Shown here one piece after another: positions 17,592-40,368 of a stretch of DNA of 64,000 nt. Position 1 is the first letter of the stretch; each line of letters starts with the position of its first letter. The notes under the pieces were generated by a model, which saw only the letters and a list, made by a program, of their open reading frames with translations, was not told the origin of the DNA and did no database searches. The translations under genes and the position numbers were made by a program. Origin of the DNA: Desulfovibrio sp. (lineage in GTDB: Bacteria; Desulfobacterota; Desulfovibrionia; Desulfovibrionales; Desulfovibrionaceae); contig JAFTDG010000128.1 of assembly GCA_017454325.1 (NCBI GenBank), positions 1 to 64,000 of the forward strand, read 5' to 3'.

Positions 17592-17816
17592 GCTTCCTCC
17601 TTGGTGGAAGCGCCTTCGGGGATGCGGTCATTGCCCTAGTGGAAATCCGTTGGCGCGTACGTCGGTGTGGAACCACAACCCACCGGTGGGCAAAACCGGT
17701 GAGAAAACAAATCGCATGTGCTACCGGTAAACCCGGCGTAAAACGAAACTCTATTGCTTTCTATAGGGCGGCGTTACAGCGCCGCCCCACGTTACGTCCT
17801 AAAAACAGATTTTCCG
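17592..17816 (-). other. intercistronic spacer with hairpins in the glycogen operon
   Basis: This 225-base spacer separates the GH57 gene from the fusion gene. It holds an 8-bp perfect G+C hairpin, GGGCGGCG at 17766-17773 with CGCCGCCC at 17780-17787, and a second one, CACCGGT at 17681-17687 with ACCGGTG at 17695-17701; a third ACCGGT copy lies at 17722-17727. No T run follows, so these are more likely processing or attenuation elements than terminators. I see no known riboswitch pattern. Confidence 0.5.
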
Positions 17817-19082
17817 TCATGCCTGAACGCTAACCTTTGGTGTTGCTTTTGCCTTTTTGGTTGAGGATTTTCTGGATACACTTTTCTTAGGAGCAGCTTC
17901 CTCTACAGCCTGAAGACGCAATTCAAAATCGGCCAGCACATTCATAAAGGTAATATAGGCGTCATATGGATTGCCAAAGGGATTGGGCCTGTCCTCCGGA
18001 CCGTCAGATGAAAACCATTTCGTTGACATATTATGAAAATGGTCAGCAGTCTGCAAACGTTCATAATCGCGCAGAAGTCCTTTATCATCGCAAACACGCA
18101 CGCGCTGTGCCAACGCATAGAGAGCGTGAATTGCATCTTTCTGCATATCGCTACCAAGCCACGCCGTCAAATCGCTGCCCTGTTCATCCCAGCTCATGAA
18201 CTGGGGCACATCCACCTTTCCAACTGGCTTATATTTTTTTGTTGCTGTGGACGGTGTGACAAAATGGAAACGCTTATCAGCGAGGATAGCGCCGGGCAAT
18301 GCCGCAAGAAAGTCAAGTATGCCAGTTTCAGCACGGTGACGCAGCCCAAAGATATGATAGTCATGAAGTATGCTGATAACATCCGCATTGTCTGCCTGTG
18401 CATGGCACCATGAAGCAAACTTGTCTGCAGTGAGAGGCCATTGATCCCATGAACGGTCACCAAAACGAACGCCCACATCACGTGACAAATCTATATTGCG
18501 TAACAGCAGTGCCATGTTCGGTGCGGTTGCAGGTGTATACACATAATTTGCGCTGCGCCAGCCTAGCACATGCTCTGCGCCTTCAGCCAATACGGTTTTG
18601 AACCCAAGCTGCTGCAGGGCCACAGCCAAATCGTTATTATAAATGCAATCCGTGTTTTTGAAAGAAACGGGTTTTTTCCCAAACAACGCCTTTACGCGGG
18701 CGCACTGTTCCTTGACCTGGCGATCAAATTCCTCTCGTGAATAAAGGAAAGCTAGTGAATGGGTGTATGTTTCAGCCGTAAACTCCACACGCCCAGTCTC
18801 GGCAAGAGCTTGAAAACTCTCAATCACCTCAGGGGCGTATTGCTCAAACATATCCAGTGCCACACCGGAAATGGAGAATGATACGGCAAAATCCTTATAC
18901 TGCCGCAGACAACGCAATAAGATATCGTTAGCAGGCAAATAGCACTGTCGAGCAGCGCGTATCATCGCATCACCATTGCGATCATCGTCTTCATAAATGG
19001 AGTTTTGCCCCATGTCAAAGACTGTGTAACGACGAAAAAGATAAGGTTCATGTATCTTAAAATTCAGGCAAAGTGCGGGCAT
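17817..19082 (-). CDS. GH57-family glucan hydrolase-like protein, altered active site
   Basis: A 421-residue protein of glycoside hydrolase family 57, resembling the archaeal alpha-amylase subgroup. Recognisable blocks are KIHEPY (HQP-type region 1), GRVEFTAETYTHSL at 98-110, SFKNTDCIYNNDLA at 140-152 and LHDYHIFGLRH at 239-249. In active relatives, as I recall them, the third block reads FRNTE with the Glu as nucleophile, and the fourth DYETFGEH; here they carry Asp145 and HIFGLRH, so activity may be changed or lost. The C-terminal 25 residues are rich in Lys and Ser. Its ATG overlaps the stop codon of the GT4 gene (TAATG). The context points to storage-glucan turnover. Confidence 0.75.
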   Translation of the reverse strand: MPALCLNFKIHEPYLFRRYTVFDMGQNSIYEDDDRNGDAMIRAARQCYLPANDILLRCLRQYKDFAVSFSISGVALDMFEQYAPEVIESFQALAETGRVEFTAETYTHSLAFLYSREEFDRQVKEQCARVKALFGKKPVSFKNTDCIYNNDLAVALQQLGFKTVLAEGAEHVLGWRSANYVYTPATAPNMALLLRNIDLSRDVGVRFGDRSWDQWPLTADKFASWCHAQADNADVISILHDYHIFGLRHRAETGILDFLAALPGAILADKRFHFVTPSTATKKYKPVGKVDVPQFMSWDEQGSDLTAWLGSDMQKDAIHALYALAQRVRVCDDKGLLRDYERLQTADHFHNMSTKWFSSDGPEDRPNPFGNPYDAYITFMNVLADFELRLQAVEEAAPKKSVSRKSSTKKAKATPKVSVQA

Positions 19083-34884: not shown

Positions 34885-34913
34885 TTGACAACTTTCTACC
34901 CGCTGCGTAAAAG
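34885..34913 (+). promoter_or_regulatory. sigma-70 promoter of the aromatic operon
   Basis: A perfect TTGACA at 34885-34890 and TAAAAG at 34908-34913 (four of six) with the ideal 17-base spacer. Transcription would start near 34920, about 23 bases before the leader peptide ATG. Confidence 0.65.
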
Positions 34914-34942
34914 AACAAAAAAAATTGGGATAGCATTTGTAT

Positions 34943-35053
34943 ATGTCACGTTGTTTTTCAAACTGCAGCATTTCTTTGTACGCCACCAGCTTTACCAGCT
35001 GGCAGTATTGTTTTGCGTATTTTAGTGGTGCCTGTGGTCGAGAACTGTGCTGA
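34943..35053 (+). CDS. aromatic-rich leader peptide (attenuator)
   Basis: A 36-codon reading frame with eight aromatic residues: Phe5, Tyr13, Phe17, Trp20, Tyr22, Phe24, Tyr26 and Phe27. Six of them fall within the 11 residues 17-27 (FTSWQYCFAYF), far above chance. The stop TGA at 35051-35053 lies 22 bases before the terminator hairpin, and the genes downstream make the precursors of Phe, Tyr and Trp. The ribosome binding site is modest (GGGA at 34927-34930) and suits a TTG start at 34937 (in frame, two codons earlier) better than the ATG at 34943. The peptide itself is unlikely to have a function; its translation speed is the signal. Confidence 0.7.
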   Translation: MSRCFSNCSISLYATSFTSWQYCFAYFSGACGRELC

Positions 35054-35085
35054 CAGCAAATGGATGTAGTTCAAGGGCCGCAGGC
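35030..35085 (+). promoter_or_regulatory. antiterminator pairing of the aromatic attenuator
   Basis: GCCTGTGGTC at 35030-35039 can pair with GGCCGCAGGC at 35076-35085 along ten positions without a gap (eight Watson-Crick pairs, two G-U). The second arm is the same stretch that forms the 5' half of the terminator, so the two structures exclude each other. The first arm begins seven bases after the last aromatic codon, so a ribosome stalled on the aromatic codons would leave most of it free, while one at the stop codon would hide much of it. Confidence 0.65.
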
Positions 35086-35109
35086 AAATCCGCCGGCGGC
35101 CCTTTTTTT
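35075..35109 (+). terminator. intrinsic terminator (attenuator) before the aromatic operon
   Basis: GGGCCGC (35075-35081) pairs with GCGGCCC (35096-35102); after one A-G mismatch the stem goes on with GGC/GCC around the loop AAATCC, and seven T residues follow (35103-35109). This is a textbook intrinsic terminator, but it lies between the promoter and the first structural gene on the same strand. Confidence 0.9.
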
Positions 35110-35172
35110 ATGGCTCACCGGCAGGTCTTCGACCCCGTATAGGCAAGTAACCGCAATTTAGAGGAGTGCCCC

Positions 35173-35970
35173 ATGTACCTTGGTAAAAAAATCCGTATGG
35201 AACGCATTATAAACCGTGAAGACGGCCGCACCATCATTGTCCCCATGGATCACGGAGTCACTATGGGCCTGGTTGACGGTCTTATGGATATGCGCGAAAC
35301 CGTTAATGACATGGCCCAAGGTGGAGCGGATGCCGTGCTCATGCACAAGGGGCTTGTACGCTGCGGCCACCGAAACGCCGGCAACGATGTCGGCCTGATC
35401 ATACACCTTTCGGCTTCAACTGCCCTCACCCCTAACGGCAACACCAAGACACTGGTGGGAACAGTGGAAGAAGCCCTCCGTCACGGTGCAGACTGCGTTT
35501 CCGTACACGTTAACCTAGGCGACCCTGACGAACGACTCATGCTGGCTGATCTTGGACGCATAGCAGCCTCCTGTGACGACTGGGGAGTACCACTACTGGC
35601 TATGATGTACGCACGTGGCCCACAGGTAAAAGACGGCTATTCGCGAGACGCTGTAGCCCACTGCGCACGCGTCGGGATGGAACTTGGGGCAGACATAGTC
35701 AAGGTTTCATATACTGGCGACCCGGAGAGTTTCGCAGATGTAACGGCCTGCTGTTGTGTACCGGTGGTCATTGCGGGCGGACCGCGTATGGATTCTACCC
35801 GTGATATTTTGCAAATGGTCTACGATTCCTTACAGGCTGGCGGTGCAGGCATCTCCATTGGGCGTAATGTATTCCAGCATCCCCACCGAGTGACTCTGGT
35901 CAAGGCCTTGCGTGCCATCGTGCATGGCAATGCCACTGTGGATGAAGCTTTGAGCATTGTGGGAGAATAG
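35173..35970 (+). CDS. 2-amino-3,7-dideoxy-D-threo-hept-6-ulosonate (ADH) synthase
   Basis: Class I aldolase-type enzyme of the archaeal-style entry into aromatic biosynthesis: it joins aspartate semialdehyde with a C6 sugar-derived donor to give ADH, replacing the usual DAHP synthase. The 265-residue barrel shows IIVPMDHGVTMG at 21-32, the catalytic tyrosine Tyr146 in MMYARGP and the Schiff-base lysine Lys177 in DIVKVSYTGDP, then VVIAGGPR and GISIGRNVFQH for phosphate binding. GAGGAG precedes the start by six bases. Related to class I fructose-bisphosphate aldolase, with which it is often confused; the next gene for dehydroquinate synthase II decides in favour of ADH synthase. Confidence 0.9.
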   Translation: MYLGKKIRMERIINREDGRTIIVPMDHGVTMGLVDGLMDMRETVNDMAQGGADAVLMHKGLVRCGHRNAGNDVGLIIHLSASTALTPNGNTKTLVGTVEEALRHGADCVSVHVNLGDPDERLMLADLGRIAASCDDWGVPLLAMMYARGPQVKDGYSRDAVAHCARVGMELGADIVKVSYTGDPESFADVTACCCVPVVIAGGPRMDSTRDILQMVYDSLQAGGAGISIGRNVFQHPHRVTLVKALRAIVHGNATVDEALSIVGE

Positions 35971-35974
35971 CCTC

Positions 35975-36958
35975 ATGCCGCGCATTTATTTCAACTGTGT
36001 ACCTTTTGACAAAAACGCTGTGACCTTGGCCCTAGAGTCAGGGGTAGATGGCGTTATTGTGCCGCGTGAGCACCTTAAGCAGGTATCCGGGCTCTCACGC
36101 TGCAAAGTACTGGCCGCGGAAGACATTGTCTACATGGAGCTACATGCCAAGAACGACGAAACCGCCGTGCTGGATCGTTTACATAATGGTGAAAACATAG
36201 TGTTGGCGCGTGGCTGGGAAGTCATTCCTGTAGAAAATTTGCTGGCGCAGAGCGACAAGGTGATGGCTGAAGCCGGCTCTCTTGATGAAGCCCGACTTGC
36301 CGCCGGCATTCTGGAACGCGGCGTGGCAGGTATTGTTGTGGATAGCGCTGCTGTGACTGATCTCAAGCAAATTATAGCACAGTGCAAAGTGGCACAGGCA
36401 CATGAGACGCTTGTGCCTGCAGTAATTACCCGTGTGGAATCTGTAGGACTGGGACATCGTGTCTGCGCCGACACTCTCTCCATACTGCACAGGGGGCAAG
36501 GTATGCTGGTGGGCAATTCTAGCGCCTTCACCTTTCTGGTACATGCAGAAACTGAGCACAATGAATATGTTGCTGCACGCCCTTTCCGTATCAATGCCGG
36601 ATCCGTGCATGCCTATGTGCGTTTGCCCGGTGACAGAACAACCTACCTCGGCGAATTTATGGCCGGTCAGGAAGTGCTTATTGTTGATGCCGATGGCAAT
36701 AGCAGCATCGCCACGCTGGGGCGCGTCAAAATTGAGGTGCGCCCCATGCTCCACATTGAGGCACAAGTGGAAACAGAGGCAGGTCTTAAAACGGGTGCCG
36801 TCTTTCTGCAAAATGCCGAAACCATCCGCCTGACCGCCCCTGGTGGCGAACCGGTGAGTGTTGTGTCCTTGAAGCCCGGTGATACAGTGCTCTGTCGCCT
36901 AGATGAGGCCGGACGGCATTTCGGCATGCGTATCAAGGAAGACATTCGGGAGCAGTAA
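35975..36958 (+). CDS. 3-dehydroquinate synthase II
   Basis: NAD-dependent enzyme that oxidatively deaminates and cyclises ADH to 3-dehydroquinate (archaeal AroB' type, unrelated to classical AroB). The 327-residue length and motifs such as DGVIVPREHL, ARGWEVIPVENLLA, RVESVGLGHRVCADT, GMLVGNSSAFTFLVHAETE, YVAARPFRINAGSVHAYV and TLGRVKIEVRPMLHIEAQ fit this family. I use ATG 35975, four bases after the stop of the preceding gene; the longer frame overlaps it. The pair with ADH synthase provides the whole route to dehydroquinate; aroB, aroQ and aroE are not in the window. Confidence 0.92.
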   Translation: MPRIYFNCVPFDKNAVTLALESGVDGVIVPREHLKQVSGLSRCKVLAAEDIVYMELHAKNDETAVLDRLHNGENIVLARGWEVIPVENLLAQSDKVMAEAGSLDEARLAAGILERGVAGIVVDSAAVTDLKQIIAQCKVAQAHETLVPAVITRVESVGLGHRVCADTLSILHRGQGMLVGNSSAFTFLVHAETEHNEYVAARPFRINAGSVHAYVRLPGDRTTYLGEFMAGQEVLIVDADGNSSIATLGRVKIEVRPMLHIEAQVETEAGLKTGAVFLQNAETIRLTAPGGEPVSVVSLKPGDTVLCRLDEAGRHFGMRIKEDIREQ

Positions 36959-36959
36959 C

Positions 36960-38165
36960 ATGAAAGACGCAACAAGGGCACCAACAGCGGCTACTGTACA
37001 ACATTCCAGTAATGCACGCCTAACCGCCATTCGTGCTGAAATCGACGCCGCTGATACAGAATTGCTCGCCATACTCAACCGCCGAGCAAGCCTGAGCCTG
37101 GAAGTGGGACGCATTAAAGCTGGAGCACCGGGCATAATCTTCAAACCCCTGCGCGAAAAGGAGGTACTGGATAATCTTGTGACAAGAAACTCTGGACCTC
37201 TGCCCGAAGAGCATCTGCGTGCCATCTGGCGTGAAATACTCTCATCTTCCCGTGCTCTTCAACGACCGCAAAATGTTGCTTATCTCGGCCCAGAGGGAAC
37301 GTTCTCTTATTTTGCTGGCGTTGAATATCTTGGCCATGCCGCCCACTTTCGCCCTTGCAATGACATCGCCCAGATATTTGAGGAAGTGGCCGGAAGGCAA
37401 TGTGAGCTAGGCGTCGTGCCACTGGAAAATTCCCTCCAGGGCACAGTTGGTGTAAGCTTTGATCTTTTTCTCAAACACGATGTCTATATTCAGGCTGAAC
37501 TTTTTTCGCGCATATCACATTGCCTGTTAAGCAACGCACCATCGCTTGCCCAAGTACACACGGTATACTCTCATCCACAACCACTTGCCCAGTGCGGCGG
37601 GTGGTTGCGGACACATTTACCCGGTGCGGTGCTCGTTCCCGTGGAATCCACTGCGGCCGCAGCCCAACGCGCATCCAGTCAGGAGAATGCTGCTGCCATT
37701 GGACACAGCAAACTTTCCAATATCGCCGGCATTGCCATACTTGCCCGTCGCATAGAAGACGAGCCAGGCAACTGGACTCGCTTTGTAGTTATCGGCCCGG
37801 GAGATTCTCGCAGTGCCAGAGCCGCTGGTCCCCAGTCCGCGCCCAATCCGGGTCATACAGGTGCAGACAAAACGTCTTTGTTATTCACTACTGCTGACAA
37901 GGCAGGCGCTCTCTCCCGTGTGCTCGACCTGCTGGCCGAAAACAACATAAATATGCGCAAACTTGAATCGCGCCCCATGCGCGGTCAATGCTGGAAATAT
38001 GTCTTTTTTGCGGATGTAGAAAGCGATTTAGAAGACAGTCGTTATGATCTCCTGATGGAAGAACTGCGTGAAGTTTGTACGAGCTTTCGCATTCTGGGCA
38101 GCTATCCCACAGGGCCACAACTTGACAGACTGGATCAGCAAGACTCAGAGGGCAATGACGCATGA
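36960..38165 (+). CDS. pheA: bifunctional chorismate mutase / prephenate dehydratase
   Basis: Converts chorismate to prephenate and then to phenylpyruvate, the phenylalanine branch. The 401-residue protein has an AroQ-type chorismate mutase at about residues 20-105 (LTAIRAEIDAADTELLAILNRRASLSLEVGRIK), a prephenate dehydratase domain at 110-285 (VAYLGPEGTFSYFA, GVVPLENSLQGTVG, NWTRFVVIG with the catalytic threonine) and a C-terminal ACT domain (TSLLFTTADKAGALSRVLDLLAENNINMRKLESRPMR), which in relatives binds phenylalanine for feedback inhibition. GGGAG lies seven bases before ATG 36960. It overlaps aroA by ATGA. Confidence 0.96.
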   Translation: MKDATRAPTAATVQHSSNARLTAIRAEIDAADTELLAILNRRASLSLEVGRIKAGAPGIIFKPLREKEVLDNLVTRNSGPLPEEHLRAIWREILSSSRALQRPQNVAYLGPEGTFSYFAGVEYLGHAAHFRPCNDIAQIFEEVAGRQCELGVVPLENSLQGTVGVSFDLFLKHDVYIQAELFSRISHCLLSNAPSLAQVHTVYSHPQPLAQCGGWLRTHLPGAVLVPVESTAAAAQRASSQENAAAIGHSKLSNIAGIAILARRIEDEPGNWTRFVVIGPGDSRSARAAGPQSAPNPGHTGADKTSLLFTTADKAGALSRVLDLLAENNINMRKLESRPMRGQCWKYVFFADVESDLEDSRYDLLMEELREVCTSFRILGSYPTGPQLDRLDQQDSEGNDA

Positions 38166-39589
38166 AGCATACTATGATTTCCGATGCTGTGCGCGAAAAG
38201 GCTATTGTAATGGCCCCAGCCTCCAAGTCCATTTCGCACCGATATCTTCTTGGCGCCGCCCTGGCAAAGGGGATTTCCACGGTCCACCATACACTGGAAA
38301 GCCTTGATCTGGAATGTACGCGTACTGTGCTCAGTTCTGCCGGGGCTTGCATGGAACCACTGGCGGAAAGCTCACCTGAATCCGGTGCGTGGCGTATCAC
38401 CGGTATGGATGGCAAACTGCGAGGGGGCACCGAACTGACCCCTCTGTCTTGTGACGTGGGAGAATCAGGTACCACCTGCCGTCTGCTCACCGCTGTACTT
38501 GCTGCTGGGGAAGGAGTGTTTCGCATACATGGGAAAGGGCGTATGCACGACCGCCCCATAGGAGATCTGCTTGATGCTCTGTCGGACCTTGGCACAACGA
38601 CCACATGCGAAGGAAAACCCGGCTGTCCTCCATTACTTCTGCATGCTAGGGGACTGAACCCCTCACGCTGTAACGGTGAAGTAACCATTGGCATGGACAT
38701 ATCCAGCCAGTATTTCTCCGGCCTGCTACTGGCAGCACCATTGGCCTGCTCGCCCCTCACACTCGTATTGGGCGGCACAAGAGCTGTTTCCTGGCCCTAT
38801 GTGGGGCTTACCCTACAATGCCTCACCGATTTTGGTATTGGCTTTGATATTGACATACGACCACACCAAGAAGCCCTTTGGAAAACTCTAACGCCTGGCG
38901 CCTGGAGACAACTCAAAGATGCCAGCCCCGGCTGTCTACGTGTACGACTACGCCCCAGTACATACCAAGCTGGCAATTATACAGTAGAAGGAGACTGGTC
39001 CGGTGCCTCATATCTGCTGGCCGCAGGAGCCCTTGGGCAGAGGCCTGTCAGCGTGCGTGGATTGCAGCCCGATTCTCTGCAAGGAGACCGTGCTATTCTG
39101 GATATTTTACAAAAAATGGGGGCAAATGTTGACGTTCAGGCCGACACCATCACTGTTTATCCATCAACACTACATGGAGTAGCCTTAGATATGGGAGCAT
39201 GCCCGGATCTCGTACCCACAGTGGCTGTGCTGGCTGCGTATGCACACGGCTCAACCCATATCAACAATGTGGCTCATTTGCGCTACAAAGAATCGGATCG
39301 CATCGAAGCTCCTGCAACTGAACTGGCCAAGGCCGGAGTGACAGTAAGCCGCCTTGATGATGGCTTACTAATCAATGGACTGGCAGGACACGGCAATGGC
39401 AAATCAGACCATCCCATACTGCCAGACGATGTAGATTTGTGCACACACAACGATCACCGAATCGCCATGTCACTGGCGCTGCTTGACCTGCGGCAGCCCG
39501 GTCTTTCTGTTCGGGAACGGCTGGACAATGCCGCCGTTGTCGGCAAATCCTTTCCGCATTTCTGGAAAGTCTGGGAGCAACTGACATGA
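38162..39589 (+). CDS. aroA: 3-phosphoshikimate 1-carboxyvinyltransferase (EPSP synthase)
   Basis: Transfers enolpyruvate from PEP to shikimate 3-phosphate, the sixth step of the shikimate pathway. At 475 residues it is somewhat longer than the typical 430. Key blocks are APASKSISHRYLLGAAL at 19-35 (phosphate- and PEP-binding Lys-Ser), CDVGESGTTCRLLTAVLAA (in place of the common NAGTAMR, a divergent class), RPIGDLLDALSDLG, GMDISSQYFSGLLLAAPLA, GDWSGASYLLAAGAL, RYKESDRIEAPATEL and NDHRIAMSLAL. It overlaps both neighbours by ATGA, so pheA, aroA and tyrA are translationally coupled. Confidence 0.95.
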   Translation: MKHTMISDAVREKAIVMAPASKSISHRYLLGAALAKGISTVHHTLESLDLECTRTVLSSAGACMEPLAESSPESGAWRITGMDGKLRGGTELTPLSCDVGESGTTCRLLTAVLAAGEGVFRIHGKGRMHDRPIGDLLDALSDLGTTTTCEGKPGCPPLLLHARGLNPSRCNGEVTIGMDISSQYFSGLLLAAPLACSPLTLVLGGTRAVSWPYVGLTLQCLTDFGIGFDIDIRPHQEALWKTLTPGAWRQLKDASPGCLRVRLRPSTYQAGNYTVEGDWSGASYLLAAGALGQRPVSVRGLQPDSLQGDRAILDILQKMGANVDVQADTITVYPSTLHGVALDMGACPDLVPTVAVLAAYAHGSTHINNVAHLRYKESDRIEAPATELAKAGVTVSRLDDGLLINGLAGHGNGKSDHPILPDDVDLCTHNDHRIAMSLALLDLRQPGLSVRERLDNAAVVGKSFPHFWKVWEQLT

Positions 39590-40368
39590 GCATACAAGAG
39601 TCTTTACCAAGAAAAACCGTCATTGTTGGAGGAAATGGACGCATGGGCAGCATGTTGTATACCCATGCTCGAAGTAAGGGACTTGCTGTCGTAAGTATTG
39701 ATCAGCCCCTCACGCCCCAAACACTGACACCGGCATGTGACGAAGCTCATCTTGCCCTCATGTGTGTACCTGCTGCGGTGCTTCAGGAAGCAACAGCCAA
39801 AATCTGCAGTTTTTTACCTCCCACAGCAGTTCTGGCAGACATCACATCGGTAAAAGAGATTCCACTGCGGCAAATGGAAGCGCTTTGGCCCGGCCCTGTT
39901 GTGGGCACACACCCCCTGTTTGGCCCCAAACAAGAGCCGCTGGCAAATCAGCCAGTGACCATAGTTCCCGGGAAAAAAGCAAAGGCAGCTCATATAGCTC
40001 TAGTATCATCATTTTTTACCACACTAGGATGTCGTGTCTTCACCTCCAGTGCTGAAGCTCATGACAAAGCTATGGCCGCCATACAGAACATGAACTTTAT
40101 CACCAGTCTGGCTTATTTTGCCTTGTTGGCCGGTCATAGGGAACTTCTCCCCTTTCTTACCCCATCATTCCGCCGCCGTCTTGACGCAGCCCAAAAAATG
40201 TTAACGGAAGATGCACACATGTTCGCCGGACTATTTGAGGCCAATCCATACAGCGCAAAAGCCGTACGCCAGTACCGCCACATGCTTGGTCTGGCCGCAG
40301 CAGGAGACATAGACTTACTCTGTCAGCGAGCCCGTTGGTGGTGGGACGAAGCCAATATCAAGATGTAG
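39586..40368 (+). CDS. tyrA: prephenate dehydrogenase
   Basis: Oxidative decarboxylation of prephenate to 4-hydroxyphenylpyruvate, the tyrosine branch. The 260-residue protein begins with a dinucleotide fold TVIVGGNGRMGSMLYTHARSKG at 11-32, followed by LADITSVKEIPLRQM, GTHPLFGPKQEP with the conserved histidine, and a helical dimerisation domain with HDKAMAAIQNMNFITSLAYFALL. No ACT domain or fused chorismate mutase is present. It is the last of the five aromatic genes visible; in Desulfovibrio vulgaris the tryptophan genes follow, as far as I recall, but here flagellar genes follow instead. Confidence 0.93.
   Translation: MSIQESLPRKTVIVGGNGRMGSMLYTHARSKGLAVVSIDQPLTPQTLTPACDEAHLALMCVPAAVLQEATAKICSFLPPTAVLADITSVKEIPLRQMEALWPGPVVGTHPLFGPKQEPLANQPVTIVPGKKAKAAHIALVSSFFTTLGCRVFTSSAEAHDKAMAAIQNMNFITSLAYFALLAGHRELLPFLTPSFRRRLDAAQKMLTEDAHMFAGLFEANPYSAKAVRQYRHMLGLAAAGDIDLLCQRARWWWDEANIKM

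Follow-up and report, generated by a model that had tools for sequence, protein, structure and literature searches.

A probable ribosome-mediated transcription attenuator with a mixed aromatic leader peptide ahead of the archaeal-type aromatic operon of Desulfovibrio

How does a Desulfovibrio cell adjust its common aromatic trunk pathway to the supply of the amino acids made from it, and which of them does it sense? The window analyzed here (64,000 nucleotides of contig JAFTDG010000128.1, from a Desulfovibrio-like assembly of 2.55 Mb in 170 contigs) raises this question, as a sequence-only reading had placed a complete attenuator with an aromatic leader peptide in front of an archaeal-type aromatic operon. 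Sequence and comparative evidence establish the parts of this element and the order in which they lie, its alternative pairing and selection on aromatic codons, and we consider it very likely that the element is a classical ribosome-mediated transcription attenuator.

Domain matches confirmed the identity of the operon, which consists of the following genes and is followed by flhB:
35173-35970, + strand: ADH synthase (aroA'), the first gene (TIGR01949, 389 bits against a cut-off of 299)
35975-36958, + strand: 3-dehydroquinate synthase II (aroB') (NF002628, 552 bits against a cut-off of 508; PF01959)
36903-38165, + strand: pheA, chorismate mutase/prephenate dehydratase with an ACT domain (profile matches); its true start is probably near 36960
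38162-39589, + strand: aroA, EPSP synthase (TIGR01356, 335 bits)
39586-40368, + strand: tyrA, prephenate dehydrogenase, encoding WWW near its C-terminus at 40336-40344

The trpE gene of this genome lies on a different contig, and a third contig carries another ADH synthase that stands alone and is 89% identical to the first (L142/L144; contig 7 of G000, 17607-18395). This second copy has an F/Y leader of its own, without W in the control region.

Upstream of the first gene, the leader region contains the following elements:
34885-34913, + strand: promoter read from the sequence, with −35 element TTGACA (34885-34890), a 17-nt spacer and TAAAAG (34908-34913)
34927-34930, + strand: possible Shine-Dalgarno sequence GGGA, read from the sequence; its spacing suits TTG 34937 better than ATG 34943
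34943-35053, + strand: leader peptide ORF MSRCFSNCSISLYATSFTSWQYCFAYFSGACGRELC, from ATG through 36 codons to TGA, supported by the sequence and by relatives
34978-35020, + strand: 5' hairpin with outer arms GTACGC (34978-34983) and GCGTAT (35015-35020)
34986-35002, + strand: inner hairpin with arms CCAGCT (34986-34991) and AGCTGG (34997-35002)
34991-35023, + strand: control codons F17, W20, Y22, F24, Y26 and F27, aromatic columns with synonymous changes and F/Y/W swaps
35030-35039, + strand: antiterminator strand 2, GCCTGTGGTC, within the 3' end of the leader ORF, pairing with strand 3
35075-35085, + strand: strand 3, GGGCCGCAGGC, common to antiterminator and terminator (folding, covariation)
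35092-35102, + strand: strand 4, the 3' arm of the terminator, GCCGGCGGCCC (two-sided changes at 7 of 11 pairs)
35103-35109, + strand: terminator T run of seven T

The promoter, the 36-codon frame and its eight aromatic codons (F5, Y13, F17, W20, Y22, F24, Y26 and F27, six of them within the 11 residues 17-27) were all found where the sequence-only reading had put them, as were the ten-position antiterminator and the competing terminator with its seven T, the latter two upheld by folding as well. An in-frame TTG at 34937, which would give a peptide beginning M-Y-M-S, is a possible alternative start, so that it and ATG 34943 are both candidates. Strand 2 (GCCTGTGGTC, 35030-35039) pairs with GGCCGCAGGC (35076-35085) at 10 of 10 positions, two of them G-U, and the terminator stem GGGCCGCAGGC/GCCGGCGGCCC contains a single A.G mismatch. 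RNA folding gave −25.2 kcal/mol for the terminator and −28.0 kcal/mol for the antiterminator after removal of the 3' arm, each with a z-score of −3.3 against shuffles. A generic consensus promoter and terminator scanner reported neither the promoter nor the terminator of the window, and returned a smaller hairpin at 34986-35002; it missed the promoter because TAAAAG lacks the T required at position 6, and we infer that it missed the terminator owing to the A.G mismatch that breaks the stem. Both elements are conserved among relatives and are therefore judged not to be chance occurrences: an exact TTGACA in the right zone precedes 56 of 66 leaders of the genus, compared with 3% of shuffles.

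ADH synthase is present in 74 of 79 genomes of the genus and 267 of 288 of the family, and upstream regions were sampled from the genus and about 25 additional family genomes. Automatic detection, which required five or more aromatic residues within a stretch of 11 and a terminator after them, recovered leader and terminator in 104 of 112 upstream regions, a count that includes some duplicate contigs and ten stand-alone isozymes. Across genus and family there are about 75 distinct operon-type leaders, each with an aromatic ORF, an antiterminator strand just after the codons and a terminator before ADH synthase. Several seeming exceptions proved to be intact leaders whose open frame exceeded the first length filter; real exceptions include L115 (a second copy), L026 and L177, which lack a leader, and certain isozymes present as second or third copies. 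Comparison of orthologous upstream regions, the check proposed for this locus, thus found conserved aromatic codons together with compensatory stem changes.

Enrichment of aromatic codons is confined to the frame of the leader. Counted per 16 codons ahead of strand 2, the in-frame means are F 3.80, Y 2.72 and W 1.00, whereas the other two frames give F 1.41/1.71, Y 0.01/0.65 and W 0.12/0.40; the sum of the three is 7.5 in frame, 1.5 and 2.8 off frame, and 2.40 in shuffled sequence. The aromatic columns vary by TAT/TAC changes, by TTT/TTC changes at some positions and by swaps among F, Y and W. The F and Y codons are clearly under selection.

At the RNA level, the antiterminator positions are paired in 97% (96.9%) of cells across 67 divergent sequences, a proportion that falls to 34-42% when one strand is slid and is equaled in 0 of 500 shuffles; in the same 67-sequence alignment, 7 of 11 terminator pairs show two-sided changes. 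One strand-3 position is unpaired in most terminators (mostly A.G), yet covaries with strand 2 (T-A in 54 cases, C-G in 7 and A-T in 1); covariation at a position mismatched in the terminator appears best explained by the antiterminator helix. The RNA sequence of strand 2 is kept in up to 14 leaders that read it in another frame, and the RNA and the peptide codons are therefore selected separately. In the segment TTTGCGTAYTTT, conservation extends to synonymous positions (Ala is GCG in 44 of 44), and RNA structure thus accounts for part of the conservation. Upstream pairing with a strand 1 shows a weak excess (0.66 vs. 0.59 in shuffled sequence) and is present in the window's own fold, and RNAalifold on leaders up to strand 2 found no conserved strand 1. 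With no clear conservation of this strand, transcription may continue past the terminator when the leader is untranslated, in contrast to E. coli trp.

The leader region thus has three hallmarks of a classical attenuator: a short predicted leader ORF whose codons favor the amino acids that the pathway makes; a terminator before the first gene; and a covarying, mutually exclusive antiterminator that uses the terminator 5' arm. We infer the following sequence of events. With charged Phe and Tyr (and probably Trp) tRNAs plentiful, the ribosome would cross the leader ORF and cover strand 2 (35030-35039), leaving strand 3 to pair with strand 4, and RNA polymerase would stop at 35103-35109; if one of the charged tRNAs ran short, the ribosome would stall at codons 17-27, strand 2 would be free to pair with strand 3, and the terminator would not form, so that the trunk, Phe and Tyr genes would be transcribed. 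RNA polymerase probably pauses at the hairpin 34978-35020, which would let the ribosome catch up. Given a ribosome footprint of typical size, a ribosome stalled at F17 to F24 would leave strand 2 open, whereas one at Y26 or F27 would overlap it in part. A point against the attenuator reading is that a ribosome at the stop codon would mask only the final four or so bases of strand 2. The stop codon lies 19-45 nt ahead of the terminator in all leaders, and a ribosome halted there should therefore not cover strand 3.

Two accounts dispense with slow decoding altogether. The terminator could be constitutive or protein-controlled, and the U-rich stretch before it could merely resemble aromatic codons, since F and Y codons are U-rich and third positions are conserved at some sites; we regard this as very unlikely, as the enrichment is frame-specific and includes TGG, and the codon content tracks the downstream gene, being Phe-rich, mixed or Trp accordingly. 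Alternatively, the nascent peptide could bind an aromatic amino acid and thereby arrest translation, as TnaC does, a reading for which its shortness and its conserved Trp and downstream residues might speak. We reject this reading, to which we assign even less chance: F, Y and W swap freely among positions; the peptide differs among relatives in length and at its N-terminus; its conserved tail ACGREL is a consequence of the antiterminator strand, which some relatives read in other frames; and a biosynthetic operon switched on by its own product would make no sense.

A less distant alternative keeps the attenuator and restricts its sensing to Phe and Tyr, with TGG retained as part of the RNA hairpin at 34986-35002. 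In the genus the larger conserved hairpin over the control codons has outer arms TACGC/GCGTA (which change among relatives, by our reading of the alignment, from CGCAAA/TTTGCG to CACAAA/TTTGTG) and inner arms GCCGGC/GCTGGT with the TGG codon in the 3' arm; the inner hairpin overlapping the W codon is kept in most leaders of the genus, most of which have a single W, in that arm. Phe and Tyr are the end products that the operon itself supplies, trpE lies elsewhere with a WWW leader, and 12 of 75 distinct leaders have no W; moreover, the AroR leader of C. glutamicum contains Phe-Tyr-Phe, yet Tyr availability is without effect in the account given in PMC11802643. Against this stand leaders of other genera with one to three W and no such hairpin, the need of the Trp branch for the same trunk enzymes, and the fact that the 5' arm of the inner hairpin varies while TGG is constant, which suggests a double constraint on this codon. 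We consider sensing of Phe and Tyr only to be possible but the less probable reading.

We therefore return to sensing of all three amino acids, which had been proposed for this leader. Of 75 distinct operon leaders, every one contains F, 74 contain Y, 63 contain W and 62 contain all three, and other genera show clusters of the FYFWYWY type; for the family, three-way sensing is well supported by these comparisons. For the leader in the window it is no more than probable, because the TGG of its single control-region W (35000-35002) also belongs to the 3' arm of the conserved hairpin, and conservation of W within the genus cannot be credited to Trp sensing alone.

Leaders of related genes differ in codon make-up. 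Stand-alone ADH-synthase isozymes of other genera have leaders such as RFFFFFSFYY, SFFGFFFF and NFFFVFFFF, with W in the control window in 0 of 9 scored; trpE of the genus has a separate GWWWR leader and terminator; and operons extending into trp genes have at least two W in 7 of 10 cases vs. 4 of 66 in the genus (Fisher p = 1.5e-5), groups that also differ in clade. These three classes serve as natural controls that support codon-specific sensing. Phe-only or Phe-dominated isozyme leaders were seen at L174, L175, L176, L185, L188, L189, L190 and L206. Trp auxotrophy was considered as a reason for the loss of W. In five genomes of the genus that encode ADH synthase no trpE match was found; the leader lacks W in three of them (G032, G033 and G041) and keeps it in G034 and G052. 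Since trpB is present and several of these genomes are incomplete, auxotrophy is at most a possible cause. Such a natural series of leaders, differing in codons on one scaffold, makes the three-amino-acid reading testable by codon swaps.

A further site of control may lie at the distal end of the operon. In genera with trpE after tyrA, the tyrA reading frame finishes with WWW (or WW), strand 2 is found at the tyrA stop codon or a little upstream of it, and there is a terminator ahead of trpE. Junctions with tyrA contain a terminator in 20 of 24 cases, and all 19 tyrA-trpE junctions tested form an antiterminator duplex (−13 to −28 kcal/mol), whose sequences differ between loci yet match in both strands (junction loci L182, L172, L173, L181, L211-L217, L221-L223, L225-L227 and L230). 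The WWW-bearing 3' end of tyrA thus appears to be an internal Trp leader for trpE, with the TyrA C-terminus as leader peptide; if so, it would show the tail of a structural gene turned leader peptide. In the genus itself, 26 of 30 genomes in which trpE does not follow tyrA keep WWW in TyrA, as does the window genome. The motif therefore probably also has a role in the protein and was later co-opted, or the split was recent. The trpE leader of the genus, GWWWRxxxRGGDVRA (L143, L145-L162), resembles the TyrA tail of other genera (WWWRENNDTGGVRH). On balance, we find it fairly likely that one family divides control among a mixed Phe/Tyr/Trp leader on the trunk operon, Phe-rich leaders on the isozymes, Trp leaders on the trp genes and, where trp genes follow, the tyrA 3' end (WWW) as sensor.

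The element shares with the enterobacterial trpL, pheL and hisL leaders a leader ORF with control codons, competing 2:3 and 3:4 helices, an intrinsic terminator and a biosynthetic operon downstream; it differs in its mixed F/Y/W codons, in an ORF that runs through strand 2, in a separate 5' hairpin over the control codons and in a strand 1 that is not clearly conserved. No Rfam model, the amino acid leaders (Trp, Phe, His, Leu and Thr) included, matched the region up to E = 1, and Rfam searches of the trp and tyrA-trpE junction loci gave only sub-threshold matches. Single leaders with codons for several end products are known from ilvGMEDA and thr, which use branched-chain or Thr/Ile codons, whereas the Desulfovibrio leader combines three aromatic amino acids.

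The claim that such a leader was undescribed for this operon stands in part. In D. vulgaris, aroA'>aroB'>pheA>aroF>tyrA>[trp operon], an operon of the same type from the same broad group, is already listed with a putative attenuator from the Merino database (Song et al. 2005, PMC1173090, Table 7); the passages of that paper concerned with the listing give no leader peptide, codons, specificity or comparative test. In C. glutamicum, AroR controls the trunk DAHP synthase gene aroF (Neshat 2014, cited in PMC11802643) and is likewise a leader attenuator with Phe and Tyr codons ahead of a trunk synthase; that synthase is unrelated, and its leader is described with Phe-Tyr-Phe, Trp going unmentioned, and with no effect of Tyr availability. 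The mixed leader, the range of genomes that carry it and the isozyme pattern were all absent from the open-access literature searched. Our reading would extend classical attenuation, well studied in γ-proteobacteria and actinobacteria, to a family of sulfate reducers and to a non-DAHP aromatic pathway. Outside this family, two MAGs (L029, labelled Aquificota, and L030) carry leaders with FWWFWFYY and FSWFWFYY before ADH synthase and 3-dehydroquinate (DHQ) synthase II, and in both we read terminators and a GCCTGCCC/GGGCAGGC antiterminator arrangement.
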